Source: Galerina marginata
Lineage: Eukaryota > Basidiomycota > Agaricomycetes > Agaricales > Galerinaceae
Direction: 5' to 3'
Assembly: GCA_023014335.1 (NCBI GenBank)
Contig: JAECYW010000005.1
Span: forward strand, 2,976,001 to 3,040,000
Length of the DNA stretch: 64,000 bases
Position numbers and translations under genes: made by a program. The notes below the pieces were generated by a model. That model was not told where the DNA came from and made no database searches. It was given only the letters and a program-made list of their open reading frames with translations. Within the stretch, counting starts at the first letter, position 1; each line of letters begins with the position of its first letter. Of this stretch, positions 19,820-58,991 are shown piece by piece.

Positions 19820-20703
19820 ATGACCACCTCGAAATCCTCGTCATCTCAAAAAAAGGGAACTTCTAACAAGGAAGAAGACCCAAATGTTATCGCTGGAAAG
19901 AAACTAGAAAAGAAATGTGGTAATCCAGAGTGCTACGCTCGCCAAAGTGAGATTGAACTGAGGGCTTGCGCGAGATGTAAAAGTATGAGGTTTGTTGTCG
20001 GTTGATATCAAGTTTTCAAGAGACTAATAAACTTTTCTGGGCAGGTATTGCTCTCGAGAATGTCAAGTTGCACATTGGAAGGTGCGATAGCCGAATACTC
20101 ATCTTGGTGTCATCATTTTGCTCATTAGATTTACAGAGCCACAAGACGTCATGCAATAACAATATGGGGCATGTCGAAGAGCTAGCAAAAGCAGACGCTG
20201 ACGGATTCTTGCAAGGATTACTTCCACGCGGGCTTACCCTTCTCGAACTTGACCAAAAGCTCGAGAAGTGGGTAAAATTCCACAGTAACTTGCTTATGGC
20301 GGCGACCATCCATGCCCTTTCCCTGCCGAAAGACATCAAGCGCGCACGCAATTACCTGCTGCGCGTCAAAGTCGTTTACCGACCTGACAACAACGGTATC
20401 TACGCAAAAGCTTTCCGCGTCTATGACGCGTCCCTCATTACCGTGGAAGAGGGAAGGGCTCTCGGAGGAGTATGGCCTGAGAGTATCGACCAGTTGCAAC
20501 AAATGAGAGAAGAGAGCGAGAGTTTGAAAAGGGGCACTGTCGCAGCTGTCGCGCTGGAATGTGTACCTCTTGCTATGCAGACCGTGCCGTTTGGTTCATT
20601 GCGAGACCTGAGCCCTTTGCGAATACAACATCGTTGGAAGGAGATTTTGATAAAAAATGTAGAAGCTGGAAAGAAGTACACGCGTTTTGAGGCCGACGAT
20701 TAG
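19820..20703 (+). CDS. MYND zinc-finger protein, intact copy
   Basis: Exons 19820-19989, 20045-20081 and 20137-20703 give 257 residues. The N-terminus is Ser/Lys-rich. Residues ~34-77 form a MYND finger: CGNPECY, CARCKSMR, YCSRECQVAHWK and SHKTSC supply the Cys/His ligands. The tiny second exon (37 nt) encodes the middle of the finger. A ~180-residue C-terminal domain follows (GLTLLELDQKLEKWVKFHSN, LGGVWPESIDQLQQMREE, RWKEILIKNVEAGKK), which I recognise only as recurring with MYND fingers in mushrooms. MYND fingers bind proline-rich peptides, so a protein-interaction role is likely and no enzymatic activity is implied. A close paralogue with the same exon pattern, broken by an insertion, lies at 34767-43500. 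Confidence 0.88.
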
Positions 20704-34766: not shown

Positions 34767-35498
34767 TCAAGATGAGGTATCGTCCATCTCAAAACGTGTA
34801 AACTTCGTGCCATTCTCGACGTTCTTTATCAAGATCTCCTTCCAACGCTGCTGTATTTTCAACGGGCTCAGGTCCCGCAATGACCCAAACGGCACAAGCT
34901 GCATGGCGAGAGGTTCGCATTCCAGCGCAACAGCGGCGACTGTACCTCTTCTCAAAGACTCGCTTTCTTCTCTCATTTTCTGAATTTGGCTGATGCTCTC
35001 AGGCCATACACCTCCGAGGGCTCTACCAGCGTTCATGTCGATAAGGACAGCATCATCGACGCGGAAGGTCTTTGCGAGGACGCCATTATTGTCAGTCCGG
35101 TAGCTGATTTTGACACGCAGCATGTACGAGCGGGCACGCTTGATGTCTTTTGGGAGAGAGAGCGCATGGATGGTGGCTGCCATAAGCAGGTTGTTGTACA
35201 ATTTGACCCACTTCTCGAGCGTTTGGTCGAGTTCAAGAAGAGTGAGACCAGGAGGCAGTCCATAGTCGCCTCCCTCCGCATCTGCTTTTGCTAGTTCTTC
35301 GGCGAGCTGTATGTTGTAATTGCACCAGACCTTGTGAGTCTGCCGCGGCAAGGTTAATGACCTGGATAAAAACAAAGATCAGGATTAGCAGATCATACTC
35401 ACCTTCCAATGGGCACTCTGGCAATCCCGAGAGCAATACCTGCAGCAAGGGATTAGAAGAATTCTGGCGTTATTTGTTGTTGACAGACCTTATACTTT
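34767..35498 (-). pseudogene. MYND zinc-finger gene, 3' part severed by insertion
   Basis: Pieces 35498-35489 (end of exon 1), 35439-35403 and 35339-34767 encode the second half of a MYND finger (YCSRDCQSAHWK, then THKVWC) and the same C-terminal domain as the intact paralogue at 19820-20703 (GLTLLELDQTLEKWVKLYNN, RWKEILIKNVENGTKF). The 37-nt middle exon is conserved in both. No start codon remains: exon 1 is interrupted by a 7.84-kb insertion and resumes at 43336. The reading frame itself is undamaged, so the disruption looks recent. Confidence 0.9.
35491..35498. repeat. 8-bp target-site duplication, left copy
   Basis: TATACTTT, matched exactly at 43336-43343. Deleting the element plus one copy restores MYND exon 1 through its GT donor in frame. 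Confidence 0.9.
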
Positions 35499-36975
35499 CG
35501 GATACCTGGTGGACTCCCCGCCGTTCAAGGAAGGTTGGCAAATGAGCCAAAACAATGGTCGGCCGGTCAGTTTTCTGAGGTCGCCACGCAAAATTTGCAC
35601 GTGAACACTCACCTGGAGTTGACCTTCGCGGAAGATGTAACTGATTACAGACCCCAAGTTCATTGAAGAGTTGCCCTCTGTAATTCATTACGTTAAAATT
35701 GTATATTAGCAGTGTAATGCATTACTGAGTAATTAATTACACAGTCTTAAAGTATGTAACAGTGGCCTTTCAGGCCATATACCTTGGGTAATTAATTACT
35801 CAGTAACCCATTATGCTTCTCAGCTGAGCCACACCTATAATCAATTACTCAGTAACCCATTATGCTTCTCAGCTGAGCCACACCTATAATCAGTTACTCA
35901 GTAACCCATTATATTTCTCACCTTGGTACACCCATAATTGATTACTCAGTAATATATTATGGGTCATACCCAAGCCATGCCTGCACCTCTCACCTAGGCC
36001 ACACCCATAATTAATTACTCAGTAACCCATTATGCTTCCCACCAGAGCCATACCTGACATCCTGTAATTAATTATTCAGTAACTCATTATGCTTTTCACC
36101 TGAGCCATGCCTGTAATTGATTACTCAGTAACCCATTATGCTTTTCACCTGAGCCATGCCTGTAAAGGCTGTAATTAATTACTCAGTAACCCATTATACT
36201 TTTCACCTGAGCCATCCTGTAATTAATTACTCAGTAATCCATTATGCTTTTCACCTGAGCCATGCCTGTAATTAATTACTCAGTAACCCATTATGCTTCT
36301 GACCAGAGCCATGCCTGTAATTAGTTACTCAGTAATTTATTACTGGACTTCATTGGGCTATACCTATGCCTCCCACCTCAGCCAAACCTGTAATTGATTA
36401 CTCAGTAACCCATTATGCTTCTGACCAGAGCCATGCCTGTAATTAATTACTCAGTAACCTATTATGCTTCTCACCTAGGCCACACCCATAATTAATTACT
36501 CAGTAACCCATTATGCTTCTCACCAGAGCCATACCTATAATTAATTACTCAGTAATCCATTATGCTTTTCACCTGAGCCATGCCTGTAATTAATTACTCA
36601 GTAACCCATTATGCTTCTCACCAGAACCATACCTGTAATTAGTTACTCAGTAATTTATTACTGGACTTAATTGGGCTATACCTATGCCTCCCACCTCAGC
36701 CAAACCTGTAATTGATTACTCAGTAACCTATTATGCTTCTCACCAGAGCCATACCTATAATTAATTACTCAGTAATCCATTATGCTTTTCACCTGAGCCA
36801 TGCCTGTAATTAATTACTCAGTAACCTATTATACTTCCCACCTGGGCCACACCCATAATTAATTACTCAGTAATTTATTATGTGCTTTACACCAGAGCCT
36901 CACCCATAATTAATTACTCAGTAATTTATTATGTGCTTTACACCAGAGCCTCACCCATAATTTATTACTCAGTAA
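35499..36975 (+). repeat. left inverted arm with ~49-bp satellite array
   Basis: The first ~280 bp are unique arm sequence, matched in inverse at ~43058-43335. From about 35760 a unit of about 49 bp repeats roughly 23 times. It consists of TAATTAATTACTCAGTAACC, CATTATGCTTCTCACC and AGAGCCATGCC, with longer variants where a CTGGACTT...CTATACC spacer is added. Confidence 0.9.
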
Positions 36976-37010
36976 CATTCTCTAGGCATTGGCACAGTGT
37001 GCCAATGCCT
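36967..37010. repeat. near-perfect 41-bp palindrome
   Basis: Arms ATTCTCTAGGCATTGGCACA on either side of one central base. It lies exactly where the left satellite array stops, so it could form a hairpin or cruciform at that boundary. Confidence 0.85.
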
Positions 37011-37193
37011 AGAGAATGACTTGATGGGTCATTGGTAATTCTCATACTGTACACACTAGATAGTACTTCTCTTAATTATATGCGTCTAAAATTGTGTAAA
37101 TCAAAAGAATGTCATCTGAAATATGTTCATTTATCAGTTTTAAGTTAAAGTCCCACCATTCTCCCATCTATCTAGCTCCAGGCCACCTTTCCA

Positions 37194-37245
37194 CCGAAGA
37201 TTTTCTTACCAGAGGCACTTTTTAAAATGCCTCTGGTAAGAAAAT
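37194..37245. repeat. interrupted palindrome, MITE-like hairpin
   Basis: Arms TTTTCTTACCAGAGGCA and its complement surround a ~10-bp T/A-rich loop. A degenerate relative (TTACCAGAGGCGTTTTTC...) stands near 40929-40965. Confidence 0.75.
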
Positions 37246-38639
37246 CTTTGTGCGGAACTCACATTGGCGCCAATTAAGCGCCCAGTTCAACCTCAGCACA
37301 TGACCCGCCAACCCGTGTCATGGGTACGAGTTTCTGTAGGGTACGAAATCGCCTACCCATACCCATACCCTGACAAAACCCGCACCCTAACCCACACAAG
37401 TCATCGTGTAATTTGTACCCGTGGGCCGTGACAATGCCTACATCCACCTTAGTGTTGGATGGCTTTGGTTGATGATCACATGGATTTCATGTATGCAGCA
37501 TGCTGCTTCTTGAGCCTTTCACAATTCCTACAAAGAATTAGCTAGTTTACTCTTGATATACCAACTTACTTTTGTCGATATTGCTGCTGCCTTTCAGCCC
37601 CTGATCCTTTGGACAATGCAGACAGCTTCCTACAGGGTACAGAGTGATTCATGTTGGTGATGGTTGATGACCAGTTAGCCAGGTAGCGGCACCTTTGAAA
37701 TGGTATCTGAATGTCTTAGAGAAAACCCAACCAATAAGTATAATTGAGAAAATTCAATTTATTCCAATTTCTATATAACATAATGTTCAAGGACAGACAA
37801 ACTTCGCGATGTGATGATAAATTGCCATTGTAGGCATGTTGCTCCCGCAGCATTGTTTGATCAGGCGAGCTGAGCAAGATAGTTTCAGTTGTGGTGCTCC
37901 TCGCAGCATCATTCATGTCGGCGATCGCAGTTGCGATTGTCCCAAGTCGTCCAAATCGCTCCTGCGGCATCGTTCATGTTGGCGGTTGAGTCGCAGATGC
38001 AGTCGGCGTTGATCACTGTGTCGGCAGTCAAATCATTCATGCAGGCAGCCGAGTCTAGTCGCGGTCGTCCGAGTCGCTCCTGCGGTGTCATTCAAGCAAG
38101 CGGTCAAGTTGTCCCAAATTGTCCGAGGTGCTCCCGCGGCGACATTAATTTCGTTCCGAGCTGTCCGGGTCGCAGTCGCAGGTTCCAAGTGGCTTGCAAT
38201 GCTGCCGCGGCATCGTACATGTTAGTGGTGAGTAGCAGTTGCAGGTTTCAAGTGGCTTGCGATGCTCCCGGGGCATTCGCGCCATCGTATTCCCTTCACT
38301 TGTGTTTCCGTCAGGCGAGCTGAGGATGGACAGGTCGATTCTCGATGTGCTGGCTCCTGCGGCGTCTTTCTCGTCTTTGTGTACTTCATTGTTGGGGAGC
38401 CAGGTAACCTGTGTCAGTAGAACGTGTCAGCAGAACGTGTCAGCTTGGAGGAGAGGCAAGTGGTACGTACCCGGGATTTCCTTGACTTGTTATTCTTGTA
38501 CCCCATCGACCTTCCCAAGTCACTCCTCGTATCCTGATCAACCATGCCGTAGTGTAGGCTCAACATTGTTGAAGTCTTCGAGATTTGGAAGTCGGAGCGG
38601 CGAGGTTGACGAGTTTGTAATGGTGGCTGGCAAGATGTT

Positions 38640-38745
38640 GGCGACATGTTGGTGACGGGTTGGTGACGGGTTGGTGACGAGTTGGTGATGACCGTCACCA
38701 ACTCGTCACCAACCCGTCACCAACATGTCACCAACATTTTGGGCA
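38640..38745. repeat. GTTGGTGACGG tandem repeat facing its complement
   Basis: About four GTTGGTGACGG-like units are followed directly by CCGTCACCAAC-type units, giving a long imperfect hairpin. Confidence 0.8.
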
Positions 38746-38922
38746 GTCTGACCGCCGTCGAGCATACGAAGCACCTTTGCCCTCTGCTCAAACTCCGTGC
38801 TCGCTATGTTCATGCCGTCGCAGAGATGCCGACTGCCAAGGTGAGCAGCGCACTCGATCTTCCGATGGCCGGTGCACTGATGTCAACAGCCAATCCAGTA
38901 GGTCTCAGATAACCCACCTGCA

Positions 38923-38930
38923 CCTATATC
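38923..38930. repeat. target-site duplication of nested MITE, left
   Basis: CCTATATC, repeated exactly at 39598-39605. Confidence 0.85.
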
Positions 38931-39597
38931 TAGTGTTTGGAAGTCCAGTTAGAGGACTGCGAAAAGACCGAGACTGGACCGGGACTGAACTGGTAAAGAC
39001 CGGAAATTCGCAAGACTGATCAAGACCGCAACCGCGGTCCGGTCTTCGGTCTTCGTCAATCTCAAAATTGTAGAGACCGACGAAAAACCGGTTTAAACCG
39101 GTCTCAACCGGTCTTTTCGCGTATAAATTTGCACATAAATACGCCTGTTAAATACCTTTCGAACAATATAAATTTCATATTTTTTGGCCTGGAACTAAGA
39201 AAGTTATGGCCAAGTCTGTCAATTTTATTGAATTTGAGTATAACTCAGCCAATTCTTGAAGGAATACTATGTGTTTGCTTGTCAGTACCAAGGTAAACTC
39301 ATTTATTATTGTATTCAGTTCGATCTACAGGCTTATCCATGTAAAAAACAGTACATGTCAATGAAAATATATGATTATACATGGCTATCTACCCTTTTAA
39401 GAATATATTACCAGAAACTGAAAAGACCGGTTCAGACCGGTTAAAAGACCGCCCAAGACCGCCCAAGACTGCTCTAAACTGGTCTTGGTCAGTCTTGTGC
39501 GGTCCTTTGCAGTTAATGGACCGCAAAAGACCGGTCTCGGTCTCGGTCTTTGGATTTCAGACCCAAAGACCGGACCGGACCGGACTTTCAAACACTA
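38931..39597. mobile_element. nested hAT-type MITE, 667 bp
   Basis: Ends are TAGTGTTTGGAAGTCC and, inverted, TAGTGTTTGAAAGTCC, flanked by the 8-bp duplication CCTATATC. Both subterminal regions are packed with AGACCGG/CCGGTCT motifs in opposite orientations, as hAT transposase-binding subterminal repeats often are. There is no coding capacity. The 8-bp duplication and the TAGTGTT end place it with hAT elements, like the autonomous copy at 54825. Confidence 0.85.
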
Positions 39598-41379
39598 CCT
39601 ATATCAACTGCACGATGAGCCGCTGCCTCCCTCAACTGCTTTCCTCACCTCCAACTCCTAATCTATGCCTTCGTGAGTACCTGCCAATATTGTTACGAGT
39701 CCTATTTATAGGACTCGTTCTTTTATCGATCTGAACCCACCAAAAATTTGGCGGGGTGTAACGCTCAAGTTTCCGGCAGACGCCGATAGCTATTTTTAGT
39801 TCGCCCGTGGTCGTCGGTGATGCATCGGTGATGGTTCAACCATGTCCGTGTCGGCTCTGTGCTGGTTCCCTCCCTTGTTTCTCATTCCCGTCTCTCAATC
39901 GGAAGCCTCGAACTAGTTCGGCCAGTCTACTTACACATTCCTTCTCTAAAGACTCTATCTGACCAAACTCCGACAGGAACAGGCTTGTTTCAAGCCCCAC
40001 ACCTTTGGATAAGGCTGACGATGCCGGGCGCCCCTCCTCTTCAAGTTCCCTTGAGATGTGGGCCGGTAGGGGGATACCCAGGGTAGAGAAGAGGGGTTAA
40101 AGAGCATGAGGGAAGGCCCTAGTCGGGGGAAACAAGCAGGTACGAGGTGAATTAAGTCATACAACTCGATTCACATCCCCTTATCTCCCATCCACCTCCC
40201 CGCTCATCCAAACCGTAGACGTAGACACGTTGCGGTGTACGGTTACCCCATGCGCAGCCTCTGATCCCGCGACCCATAATATATGCCGATGAAAAGCAAG
40301 GCGACTGCTCGTCTATGTTTGGCAAGTCATCGAGTAGACATTATCAGCACGTAACCGACCCCGCGACCCCATTGCACATGCCGACGAAGAGCTAGGCAAA
40401 TGATCGTCCTCATTTGGCAAGCCACTCTCGTGTCTCCACATCCTGCGTCAAGCTCCACACCCCCAGCCCATGCACGCATCCAGTCTCTCGCGCACATTCC
40501 ATGACTTATCCGAGACTTTGAAATTAAGTATTGCCTTTGCTCACAGCATTCGATAACGCCAGCAATGATTACACCCAGCTCCCTCGTGTACAACCACTGT
40601 GTCTGACTACTCAAGCTCCTCGTTTGCCACCGATTTTGCCTCGCACCCGCCGGTTCGATCTGCCAACTTTATCCTCCCTAAATTTGACCACATCTTCGGC
40701 GATAGACTCCTCGTCCTGCCTGGTGAATTGTCTTCTTGGTGGTATTATCTTGGGCTTTCAAGCGTCATCTTGCAACAGGGAGTACAATTGTAGTATTTCC
40801 TTATTCTGTAGCCTTGCAATGTAACACTCTGAATGTCTAAATAAATCAGGAAACCTGTTATCTACAAAACTACCAGAATTAGCGGGAGCTGAGTTGATTT
40901 AACTACCATCAAAAACCCGTTTTGACCTTACCAGAGGCGTTTTTCAAAATGCCTCTGATAACAGTAGCTTCGCTTTTTCGTGTGCCACACTGCCTCTCTC
41001 CGCTCCCGCTTTGTGTCCCTCAATTAAACATCAACCGTTCAACTTATATTATAATTTTAAAGGATTGTTAGCCGTAGGATATAACTTCTTATTTCTTTAT
41101 TTCCTCTGCCTCGAATCTTGATATTCAGTTAATTTACTTTAATTACAATTCCATTCCATCAGACCCAGCGTGTAAATGTGGAAATTTATTATTGAAAGAT
41201 AGATTTAAAAGGAGAAGGGCTCGTAAATGCCATGCAAAGCATTGGCCTACAAAGCTAGTCTTGTTGTTGTCTTCTTCATAATGGGGGAGAGTGCAGGTTA
41301 TAATGACAAGGGCCAGGTATGCACTTGTATATCCATTCGCCCTTGTGTATCACTCATGTGGGCTGTACCCAGCACAGTT

Positions 41380-41900
41380 CTTTCAGCCCCGCCTTGGTGG
41401 GTGTTTAGCCCAGCCCCTACTTGCGGTCCTTTGTGCTGCACCATTTGCTTTACCCTGGCGTTTATTGTTGACCCTACCCGCGGCCGACGATTCATTGTAT
41501 TCTTACTCACCGTTGGCCCTACCCGCGGCTGATGGTGCAGCTTGTTGTCGTCCTACCCGCGGCTGATGGCGGCCGTATTTTTGCTCATCGTTGGCCCTAC
41601 CCGCGGCTGATGGTGCAGCTCTCGTCATTGCTGCACCATTTGCTTTCCCCTGGCGTTTATCGTTGGCCCTACCCGCGGCCGACGATTCATTGTATTCTTA
41701 CTCACCGTTGGCCCTACCCGCGGCTGATGGTGCAGCTCTCGTCATTTCCGCACCTGCTTGGCACCCGCGGCGATGGCATGTTGATTCATTGTTGGCCCTA
41801 CCTGCAGTTGATAGTGCTGTGGTTGCAGCTCGTTTTCGCTGCTCTTGCTGTGCTCATTGTTGGCCCTACCCACAGTTTATGGTGCATCTTGTTGTCTCAT
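41380..41900 (+). repeat. minisatellite with GTTGGCCCTACCCGCGGC core
   Basis: The core recurs about eight times, usually followed by TGATGGTGCAG or CGACGATTCATTG, with composite periods of roughly 55-130 bp. Some frames stay open through it only because of the periodicity. I do not regard them as genes. Confidence 0.8.
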
Positions 41901-42229
41901 GCGCCCTGGAACCATATTGTATGACATGCAAGCCTGAATACTTCAGGAACACAAAATTCCTGATTGATTATACCCACTCTCAAGGGCATACAAAGTGCAG
42001 TGCCTCCAGCTTCTTAATAACCTATGCTCGGGTGATTCCTCATCTTGCAAGAATTAATTCCAGTGCAGCAGAATGTGTAAATAATGGGATATCTTGTATC
42101 AGGAAGTTGGTCAGTTATATGAGTCAAGACAGGGCAATTATGTACACGCAGGTTTATCTGGGAATTTGGAATAGGCTAAAGATTCAGAGGATGAAGGGTC
42201 TATAGTGTGACTAGTGTTGAATTACAGGC

Positions 42230-43335
42230 TTGGGACAGGATTGAATCAATTAATAATTATTGGTTACTGAGTAATTAATTACAGCTATGGCTCTAGTGAG
42301 AAGCGTAATGGGTTACTGAGTAATGTATTATGGGTATGGCTTGGGTGAGAAGCATAATGGGTTACTGAGTAATTAATTATAGGTATGGCTCTGGTGAGAA
42401 GCATAATAGGTTACTGAGTAATCAATTACAGGTTTGGCTGAGGTGGGAGGCATAGGTATAGCCCAATTAAGTCCAGTAATAAATTACTGAGTAACTAATT
42501 ACAGGTATGGTTCTGGTGAGAAGCATAATGGGTTACTGAGTAATCAATTACAGGTTTGGCTGAGGTGGGAGGCATAGGTATAGCCCAATGAAGTCCAGTA
42601 ATAAATTACTGAGTAACTAATTACAGGCATGGCTCTGGTCAGAAGCATAATGGGTTACTGAGTAATTAATTACAGGCATGGCTCAGGTGAAAAGCATAAT
42701 GGATTACTGAGTAATTAATTACAGGATGGCTCAGGTGAAAAGTATAATGGGTTACTGAGTAATTAATTACAGGCATGGCTCAGGTGAAAAGCATAATGAG
42801 TTACTGAATAATTAATTACAGGATGTCAGGTATGGCTCTGGTGGGAAGCATAATGGGTTACTGAGTAATTAATTATGGGTGTGGCCTAGGTGAGAGGTGC
42901 AGGCATGGCTTGGGTATGACCCATAATATATTACTGAGTAATCAATTATGGGTGTACCAAGGTGAGAAATATAATGGGTTACTGAGCAACTGATTATAGG
43001 TGTGGCTCAGCTGAGAAGCATAATGGGTTACTGAGTAATTAATTACCCAAGGTATATGGCCTGAAAGGCCACTGTTACATACTTTAAGACTGTGTAATTA
43101 ATTACTCAGTAATGCATTACACTGCTAATATACATTTTTAACGTAATGAATTACAGAGGGCAACTCTTCAATGAACTTGGGGTCTGTAATCAGTTACATC
43201 TTCCGTGAAGGTCAACTCCAGGCGAGTGTTCACGTGCAAATTTTGCATGGCGACCTCAGAAAACTGACCGGCCGACCATTGTTTTGGCTCATTTGCCAAC
43301 CTTCCTTGAACGGCGGGGAGTCTGCGTGCTGTCCC
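42230..43335 (-). repeat. right inverted arm with satellite array
   Basis: About 15 units of the same ~49-bp satellite in reverse orientation (TTACTGAGTAATTAATTA...), then ~280 bp of unique arm sequence shared with 35499-35780. It has fewer units than the left arm, so the arms have diverged in copy number. Confidence 0.9.
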
Positions 43336-43343
43336 TATACTTT
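43336..43343. repeat. 8-bp target-site duplication, right copy
   Basis: TATACTTT, the second copy flanking the 7.84-kb element. Confidence 0.9.
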
Positions 43344-43500
43344 TGCACCTTGCACAAGCTTTCAGAGTCACGTCTATCGCACGGGTGTAACATTGTGGGT
43401 TACCACATTTTAGCCCTATGGTTTTCGCGGAAGCAACAATAACGCTGGGATCTTCTTCTACCTCTTTTTTTTTCTGAGAAGACGATTTTGAGGGAGGCAT
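43336..43500 (-). pseudogene. MYND zinc-finger gene, 5' part severed by insertion
   Basis: The ATG at 43500 opens a Ser/Lys-rich leader (MPPSKSSSQKKK) and the first half of a MYND finger (CGNPQCYTR, KACARCKS). The frame then runs into the transposon and would pick up foreign residues before a stop near 43168. Together with 35498-34767 it would code for a protein much like the paralogue at 19820-20703. The promoter is intact, so a truncated transcript may still be made. Confidence 0.9.
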
Positions 43501-57800: not shown

Positions 57801-58991
57801 CCAAGCATCTATCGGAAAGCTGGAGGAATATCTTGAGAAATCGCGATCAAACAAGGTCTATGTGCTTGCCATGTGTAAGTTGTCCATCCCACAACTACCT
57901 TCCAATTTATGACCTCTTTTGGCATGACCTAGTGATAAATCCAATGATTAAGCTTCACTGGGCCGAGGTGCACTGGTCACCTCCAACGCTTTCAAGCGCA
58001 AAAGAGTGGATTCAGGCTGCAGTAAGTACTTAGCCCTGTTGATTCCGTTCTCCATACATATTTCATGTAGATGCTCGAACATCAGCAAGGCATCCAGGCT
58101 GAAAAATTGAAGGTTCCCGCGTCGACTGGGCGTCGACTTGTGAAGGTGCCCTCACATGCCGCTCGTGCTCAGGCAGCTGGATTGGCACGATTGAACGCTC
58201 TCGCAAAATCTCTATCAGCGGAAAACCTCAACCACAGCACATCTGGCCTTGAGCCAACTTCTACCCCGACACCTACCAGAGCCGAGATACATGCGCAGAA
58301 TCTTTTAACTGTGCGGGAGGAGTTGCGGCGATGGGATGCTGCGGGAATAATAGAAAACGAACAAGAGATTGAGGATTTTGACCTCGTACGATTCTGGCAG
58401 GTGTGTTCATAAATTCTATCCTTTTCTCGGTCGCTTACCTTTGTTGTAATCTAGAGCAAGAAGCATGAATTTCCGATCTTGTATAAGATTGCCCTTGATG
58501 TCATCCCAGTACAGGCCTCGGCTGTTCCTTGTGAAAGAGTCTTTTCTTCAAGCAAGGAAACTGACACTGACAGACGTTCAAATACCGGCCAAACACTAAT
58601 GGAGATTCTTCAAATCTCTAAATACCTTGCTCGATCCCATAGACTTGATTTCACTTCGGGCTTGCTTGCGACAGAGGAGGAGTGTACTGTAATTGATGTT
58701 CCCCCATCCACACTTACTGACCTGCTCAAAAGTGGTGACATAGAAGGTCTAGAGACTTTAATAGCTGGATCTCGTCGTTAATATAACTTGTATTACGCCT
58801 GCACAACCTACACAGAGCTCTAAGTTAATCCAGACCAAAGGACGAAGAGGTATCACAACCGTGGCAACGTGTGCCCCGGGAGGTGCCAAATGAGGAAGTC
58901 CAACTCAAGCCAGCTTGAGCGGAACTCAACCGAGCTCAAGCGAATTAGCCGAGAGCTTAAGTTGCGCTCAGCTCAGCTCACGGCAACACTA
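54825..58991 (+). mobile_element. hAT transposon, apparently complete (4167 bp)
   Basis: Ends are TAGTGTTGCCG and its inverse CGGCAACACTA, next to 8-bp duplications of ACAAAAAG. Both subterminal regions contain many GCTTGAGTT / AACTCAAGC motifs in opposite orientation, the presumed transposase-binding sites. The single gene inside has no stop or frameshift. Exact duplications, matching ends and an open transposase suggest recent insertion and possible activity. Confidence 0.93.
55364..58781 (+). CDS. hAT family transposase with BED-type zinc finger
   Basis: Ten exons (55364-56133, 56190-56430, 56491-56646, 56707-56928, 56980-57092, 57141-57504, 57568-57874, 57933-58021, 58071-58400 and 58455-58781) join in phase, giving 972 residues. 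A long Pro/Ser/Gln-rich N-terminus precedes a BED-like finger (CRLC-CGKDW, then HLREKHG). The catalytic core shows VSYTGDVWSRQNLESYFAV, with the first Asp in T-G-D-V-W, then IGMITLDNASNNNTMM with the second Asp region, and RCFPHVTN. The C-terminal dimerisation block reads FPILYKIALDVIPVQASAVP followed by CERVFSSSKET. These are the standard landmarks of hAT enzymes, which cut and paste by hairpin formation and leave 8-bp duplications. The BED finger should recognise the subterminal repeats. An earlier in-frame start at 55256 is less likely. Confidence 0.9.

Follow-up and report, generated by a model that had tools for sequence, protein, structure and literature searches.

A probable foldback-like DNA transposon family with arms of a private satellite, and its insertion in a MYND gene of Galerina marginata

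The 64,000-nucleotide stretch of Galerina marginata DNA analyzed here (the window; assembly GCA_023014335.1, contig JAECYW010000005.1, positions 2,976,001 to 3,040,000) contains an element of 7837 bp inserted in exon 1 of a MYND gene. This element very probably belongs to a young, non-autonomous family of foldback-like DNA transposons, of which five copies were found in the assembly, a judgment that excludes the identity of the helper enzyme. The analysis shows fixed ends, 8-bp target-site duplications, a restored empty site, arms made of a private satellite, arm ends that are homogenized, and a core that is reversed in one copy.

The insertion and the interrupted MYND gene

The insertion and its exact 8-bp duplication, proposed in the first-pass annotation, were confirmed to the base, with the element at 35499-43335 between exact copies of TATACTTT at 35491-35498 and 43336-43343. 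The same annotation described inverted arms of more than 1 kb, mostly satellite. Alignment of the arms recovered two mutually offset inverted blocks, in which 35512-35874 pairs with 42960-43322 (98%) and 35838-36157 pairs with 42726-43045 (99%). Together these blocks span approximately the outer 600 bp with a complementarity of 98-99%, and weaker satellite matches between the arms continue beyond them, reaching 36975 on the left and 42256 on the right. The length and satellite content of the arms were therefore as described, but the inverted repeat stops short of the insertion edges, beginning 13 bp inside each, and the outermost 13 bp, read inwards, are mutually unlike (CGGATACCTGGTG on the left, GGGACAGCACGCA on the right). 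Folding of these tips gave a structure no better than that of shuffled sequences. The arm satellite has a 49-bp unit, with a repeated near-palindrome motif, TTACTCAGTAA, in each. Foldback-like elements are recognized by tandem repeats within long terminal inverted repeats and by target-site duplications of about 8-10 bp; here the arms exceed 1 kb and consist of 49-bp repeats, and the duplication is exactly 8 bp in all five copies. The parts of the window copy are as follows.

35491-35498: left 8-bp target-site duplication, TATACTTT
35499-35511, + strand: left 13-bp tip, outside the inverted repeat, identical in 5/5 copies
35512-35787, + strand: left inverted arm, outer non-satellite part
35788-36975, + strand: left arm 49-bp satellite, with the TTACTCAGTAA motif repeated
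36976-42255: core between the arms, without a recognized protein domain
42256-43046, - strand: right arm 49-bp satellite
43047-43322, - strand: right inverted arm, outer non-satellite part
43323-43335, - strand: right 13-bp tip, the same in 5/5 copies and different from the left tip
43336-43343: right 8-bp target-site duplication, TATACTTT

When the flanks were joined with a single TATACTTT, a minus-strand gene of three exons with GT/AG introns was obtained, in agreement with the earlier proposal that excision of the element plus one copy of the duplication restores a spliceable MYND exon. Several acceptors were tried for the second intron, and the one chosen preserves the reading frame and gives the orthologue length. 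The spliced product of 258 aa differs at 9/258 positions from Galerina marginata GALMADRAFT_241879, which is also 258 aa long. A paralogue in the same window provided a natural uninterrupted reference; it is intact at the codon matching the insertion point and encodes 257 aa, with 11/257 differences from GALMADRAFT_241889. Both orthologues were obtained by a protein search with the paralogue as query. A second haplotype of the MYND locus was not found in the assembly.

34767-43500, - strand: MYND gene with exon 1 interrupted by the element; start codon at 43500, exon 2 at 35439-35403 and exon 3 at 35339-34767, with splice sites chosen by us
19820-20703, + strand: MYND paralogue, natural uninterrupted reference

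Apart from the insertion the host gene is undamaged, as the annotation had stated. Its divergence from the orthologue does not exceed that of the intact paralogue, which fits a recent insertion. Recency is thus consistent with the undamaged gene and the exact duplication, but the arms lend it no support: arm identity is unusable for dating because the arm ends are homogenized within copies (see below), and the window copy already holds at least one nested insertion.

Five copies, a private satellite and homogenized arms

A search for further copies with the same ends and 8-bp duplications, suggested by the first-pass annotation, was carried out in the window's own assembly (69.3 Mb, 43 contigs). 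Five copies of differing lengths were recovered in all, one on each of five contigs.

C39 (window copy), window 35499-43335: 7837 bp
C29, 362191-367865: 5675 bp
C12, 1714980-1720331: 5352 bp
C40, 3489729-3496487: 6759 bp
C43, 2734160-2763847: 29,688 bp, including a nested element of 22,932 bp

The target-site duplications (TATACTTT, GTTGTTTG, AACAATTC, CGAACTTC and GCCTCGAT) are all different, and each is exact and 8 bp long at the same outer edges (5/5 copies), where the chance of one exact 8-mer at fixed edges is 4^-8. The outermost 21 bp on the left are the same in all five copies, as are those on the right. Long inverted arms are generally hard to assemble, and the annotation had itself raised a fold-back artefact as a possible undoing of the insertion. 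These data from the assembly, rather than from reads, make a fold-back or mis-join extremely improbable, since the five copies lie on separate contigs, each with its own length and its own exact duplication, and the restored gene has the exact length of its orthologue.

The arm satellite was similarly confined to these five copies. With up to 3 mismatches, the monomer gave 191 matches in the genome (107 forward and 84 reverse; control 0; part of them listed individually), and the same 107 + 84 were counted inside the five elements (191/191); neither fragments nor free arrays were found outside them at this sensitivity. The 49-bp satellite is thus private to the element family. An exact 19-base search of viral contigs gave no match.

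The 29.7-kb copy on C43 was at first read as an autonomous partner, but it consists of a 6756-bp copy and the 22,932-bp nested element. The latter has ends CACTGGACGC/GCGTCCAGTG, with TGT on both sides, and contains retrotransposon-type coding sequence; judging by its ends, we take it to be CACTA-like. In the searches with the 21-bp ends, the backwards control gave 1 match each, and the right end yielded 3 additional near-matches. Two of these, with 20/21 bases (C12:3333170 and C21:31327), were taken for ends of a partner and then set aside, as no second end and no exact duplication were found. The two (L050 121-141, L051 128-148) sit in a duplicated segment, and the adjoining gene is presumably DOT1-like, recognized by eye. 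Approximately 43 bp past the near-match, the preceding 8 bases recur imperfectly (CAAGAAGC/CAAAAAGC in L051), which might be an excision trace. The third near-match (C41:2998193, 3 mismatches) is at chance level, as the backwards control also gave 1 match.

Comparison of the two arms within each copy revealed few differences in the outer 300 alignment columns (4/295, 1/295, 1/295 with a further gap of 5 columns, 1/239 and 2/221). In two copies, both arms share a deletion private to that copy, of 56 columns in one case and 74 in the other. Over 650 bp, the arms of C29, C40 and C43 differ by 1-2/650, those of C39 by 14/597 and those of C12 by 25/621. All five copies thus show clear homogenization in the outer part of their arms, and three of them show it along the whole length compared. 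It ends at the tips, which stay unlike in every copy. Relative to the tips, the core of C12 is reversed compared with the other four copies, as expected from recombination between inverted arms.

These observations may be accommodated by a transposase supplied in trans that would cut at the fixed outer ends and insert the element with an 8-bp stagger. The 49-bp repeats with their near-palindrome TTACTCAGTAA could be arrayed transposase binding sites, and cleavage could take place at the two unlike 13-bp tips. Exchange between the arms, by recombination or conversion, would keep them alike and occasionally flip the core, which may be passive cargo with a partial relationship to the upstream region of a TET/JBP-like gene.

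Core content and the candidate mobilizing enzymes

The statement of the annotation that no transposase is recognizable inside the element was borne out by a Pfam scan of every stop-to-stop frame of 70 aa or more enclosed by the window copy (25 in total), of which none matched at the curated cut-off and none matched a transposase; its view of a non-autonomous element was likewise supported. The sole rows were DUF6418 (E 0.062), DUF2645 (E 0.097) and, in a further scan, one CwfJ row (E 0.2). From the other copies, two inner frames were scanned, both in the nested part of C43. The following pieces were distinguished within the core of the window copy.

38718-38930, + strand: first piece similar to the upstream region of a TET/JBP-like gene (C12:272.3 kb), 85%
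38931-39597: nested 667-bp element with ends TAGTGTTTG/CAAACACTA, flanked by exact CCTATATC copies; taken by us, from its ends, to be hAT-like
39593-39693, + strand: second piece similar to the upstream region of that TET/JBP-like gene, 77%
41258-41897, + strand: third piece similar to the upstream region of that TET/JBP-like gene, 71%

In total, the core has about 1 kb in common (70-85% identity) with C12:272.3-273.3 kb, directly upstream of the TET/JBP-like gene at G000:C12:272345-274909; the last exon of this gene matches Tet_JBP with E 3e-5 and 23.8 bits, below the curated cut-off of 34.9. The survey of core matches scored 40/71 candidates, and further such places may exist. The TET/JBP-like family has 42 matches in the genome, with 13 lying no more than 5.2 kb from a KDZ transposase match and 14 no more than 12 kb from one, where the expected share within 12 kb is approximately 3% (based on 98 of the 135 KDZ matches). 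However, neither the C12 gene nor any of its six closest relatives is close to a KDZ match (the nearest is 79 kb away), so the sequence link between the core and KDZ elements is suggestive only, and capture might have occurred in either direction. Three closer relatives of the gene showed no comparable inverted-arm structure; one matches the core of the C40 copy weakly (66% over 306 bp). A dispersed repeat nested in the core accounts for a segment, at most ~530 bp long, that the core shares with 20 of the loci L028-L049. The core also carries, at 38637-38736, an inverted pair of 11-bp GTTGGTGACGG-type repeat arrays with counterparts in other copies.

Our best guess for the mobilizing enzyme, held tentatively and at somewhat less than even chances, is a KDZ-type (Zisupton-like) transposase. 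There are 135 KDZ matches in the genome, and these include three near-identical 21.4-kb elements with 2083-bp inverted repeats (G000:C4:747586-768946, 888545-909905 and 1012620-1033978), whose structure was derived from the coordinates of matching pieces, with the middles unread. One is flanked by the 8-bp duplication ATTAAATG and one by a 7-bp duplication, GACGTGT, and a 50-bp tandem repeat lies near the end of the inverted repeat. Long-armed KDZ elements with duplications of ~8 bp are thus present in this genome, and they resemble the satellite-armed family in duplication length, long inverted repeats and tandem repeats. The inverted repeat of the 21.4-kb elements gave short weak matches to element cores (best 77% over 56 bp, E 0.002) and, among the matches listed, none to the arms. 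In the available part of the literature, KDZ1 of Cryptococcus has 241-bp inverted repeats and 8-bp duplications and KDZ2 and KDZ3 have duplications of 4-8 bp (PMC12810828), and 8-bp duplications are given for Zisupton-1_PGr, of a Dileera lineage (PMC12730594); the same two sources provide the background on KDZ and TET/JBP (PMC12730594; PMC12810828). The 21.4-kb elements are longer than the Cryptococcus KDZ elements described in the accessible text of PMC12810828. Kyakuja elements, reported in the portion consulted to have 7-bp duplications and no inverted repeats (PMC12730594), provide a poorer match, since the present family has 8-bp duplications, ends other than the CA..TG of Kyakuja, and long inverted repeats. 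No terminal inverted repeats were seen in two KDZ elements with TET/JBP-like genes; a 7-bp duplication with CA..TG ends is a candidate in the first, and the second has none. Unrestricted 8-bp pairs around these two numbered 114 and 79, too many to be meaningful.

Several results weigh against the account given here. As regards a foldback-like family moved in trans, no autonomous partner was found: a search of the whole assembly for the start of the inverted repeat (up to 3 mismatches; control 0) returned nothing but the 10 ends of the five copies, and none of the listed KDZ matches (135 in the genome) or listed hAT matches (26 in the genome) lies within the five elements. Taken with the 25/25 inner frames of the window copy, the lack of a KDZ domain is compatible with a non-autonomous derivative. 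As regards the KDZ enzyme itself, the third 21.4-kb element has no matching duplication, and this family, the sole KDZ family compared, ends in CACTTCAGTGG, unlike the tips CGGATACC/GGGACAGC of the satellite-armed elements. As regards homogenization, the tree over 650 bp leaves the two C12 arms unpaired, that is, not each other's nearest.

An element of the same kind could instead be mobilized by a hAT transposase, which we consider rather unlikely. The length of the duplication fits, hAT duplications usually being 8 bp according to the part of PMC12730594 available, the genome contains 26 hAT dimerization-domain matches, and the 667-bp hAT-like element nested in the window copy itself has an 8-bp duplication. 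However, the tips CGGATA and GGGACA are unlike the TAGTG-type ends of that nested element, the one hAT-like element compared, and no long-armed hAT turned up in this genome, though none was looked for. One hAT dimerization-domain match is located in the window, at 58455-58607 on the + strand (C39:3034455-3034607).

Mobilization by a Mutator-like or P-like enzyme, the kind put forward for other foldback elements, is unlikely here. Mutator duplications are usually 9 bp, as against 8 bp in 5/5 copies; the genome searches for transposases covered KDZ and hAT. In the accessible text, foldback elements are mostly assigned to Mutator, with exceptions (PMC4079207), and Galileo is assigned to P (PMC3573991), but the Tetris duplications described there vary between 8 and 10 bp (PMC4079207), compared with exactly 8 bp in the present copies.

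The unlike 13-bp tips, kept outside the inverted repeat in 10/10 ends, and the lack of a sequence partner in the assembly would also be expected if the enzyme belonged to an undescribed transposase class recognizing two unlike tips. Such an enzyme would need two different 13-bp ends outside kilobase satellite arms, with conversion stopping at the tips, and may represent an undescribed transposase lineage. We regard this as improbable: the 8-bp duplication fits known transposase classes, and absence of a partner from one assembly is weak evidence, no autonomous copy having been found for Tetris either (PMC4079207).

Relation to known foldback elements and significance

The suggestion that no named family combines satellite arms with 8-bp duplications was not upheld, as Tetris and Galileo share this architecture. 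Tetris of Drosophila virilis is described, in the part of the source available, as non-autonomous, with tandem repeats within long inverted repeats, 8-9-bp duplications in three complete copies and no autonomous partner found (PMC4079207). It thus resembles the present family in its tandem-repeat inverted arms, its duplications of ~8 bp and its lack of a partner. The two differ in the repeat unit (~220 bp in Tetris vs 49 bp here, compared by description rather than by sequence), and the Tetris repeats, as far as that text goes, also form longer satellite arrays, whereas here 191/191 matches are within elements. Galileo, of the P superfamily in Drosophila, likewise has long inverted repeats whose length varies through internal tandem repeats, with arm extension explained by copying between arms in the section consulted (PMC3573991). 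According to the same partial source, however, Galileo has 7-bp flanking sequences and its nearly complete copies encode a transposase (PMC3573991), while none was recognized in the window copy. The architecture of the element is therefore already known, and it is not of an unnamed kind. New are the family itself, the unlike tips outside the inverted repeat and the confinement of the satellite to the family; among the top-ranked results in the open-licence literature, no fungal foldback-like element with satellite arms was found.

The complete family of five copies opens arm homogenization, core reversal and the recognition of unlike ends to joint study, and the disruption of the MYND gene is exact to the base, with an intact paralogue in the same window. 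A satellite confined to the arms of a transposon provides a test case for the origin of satellites from transposons.

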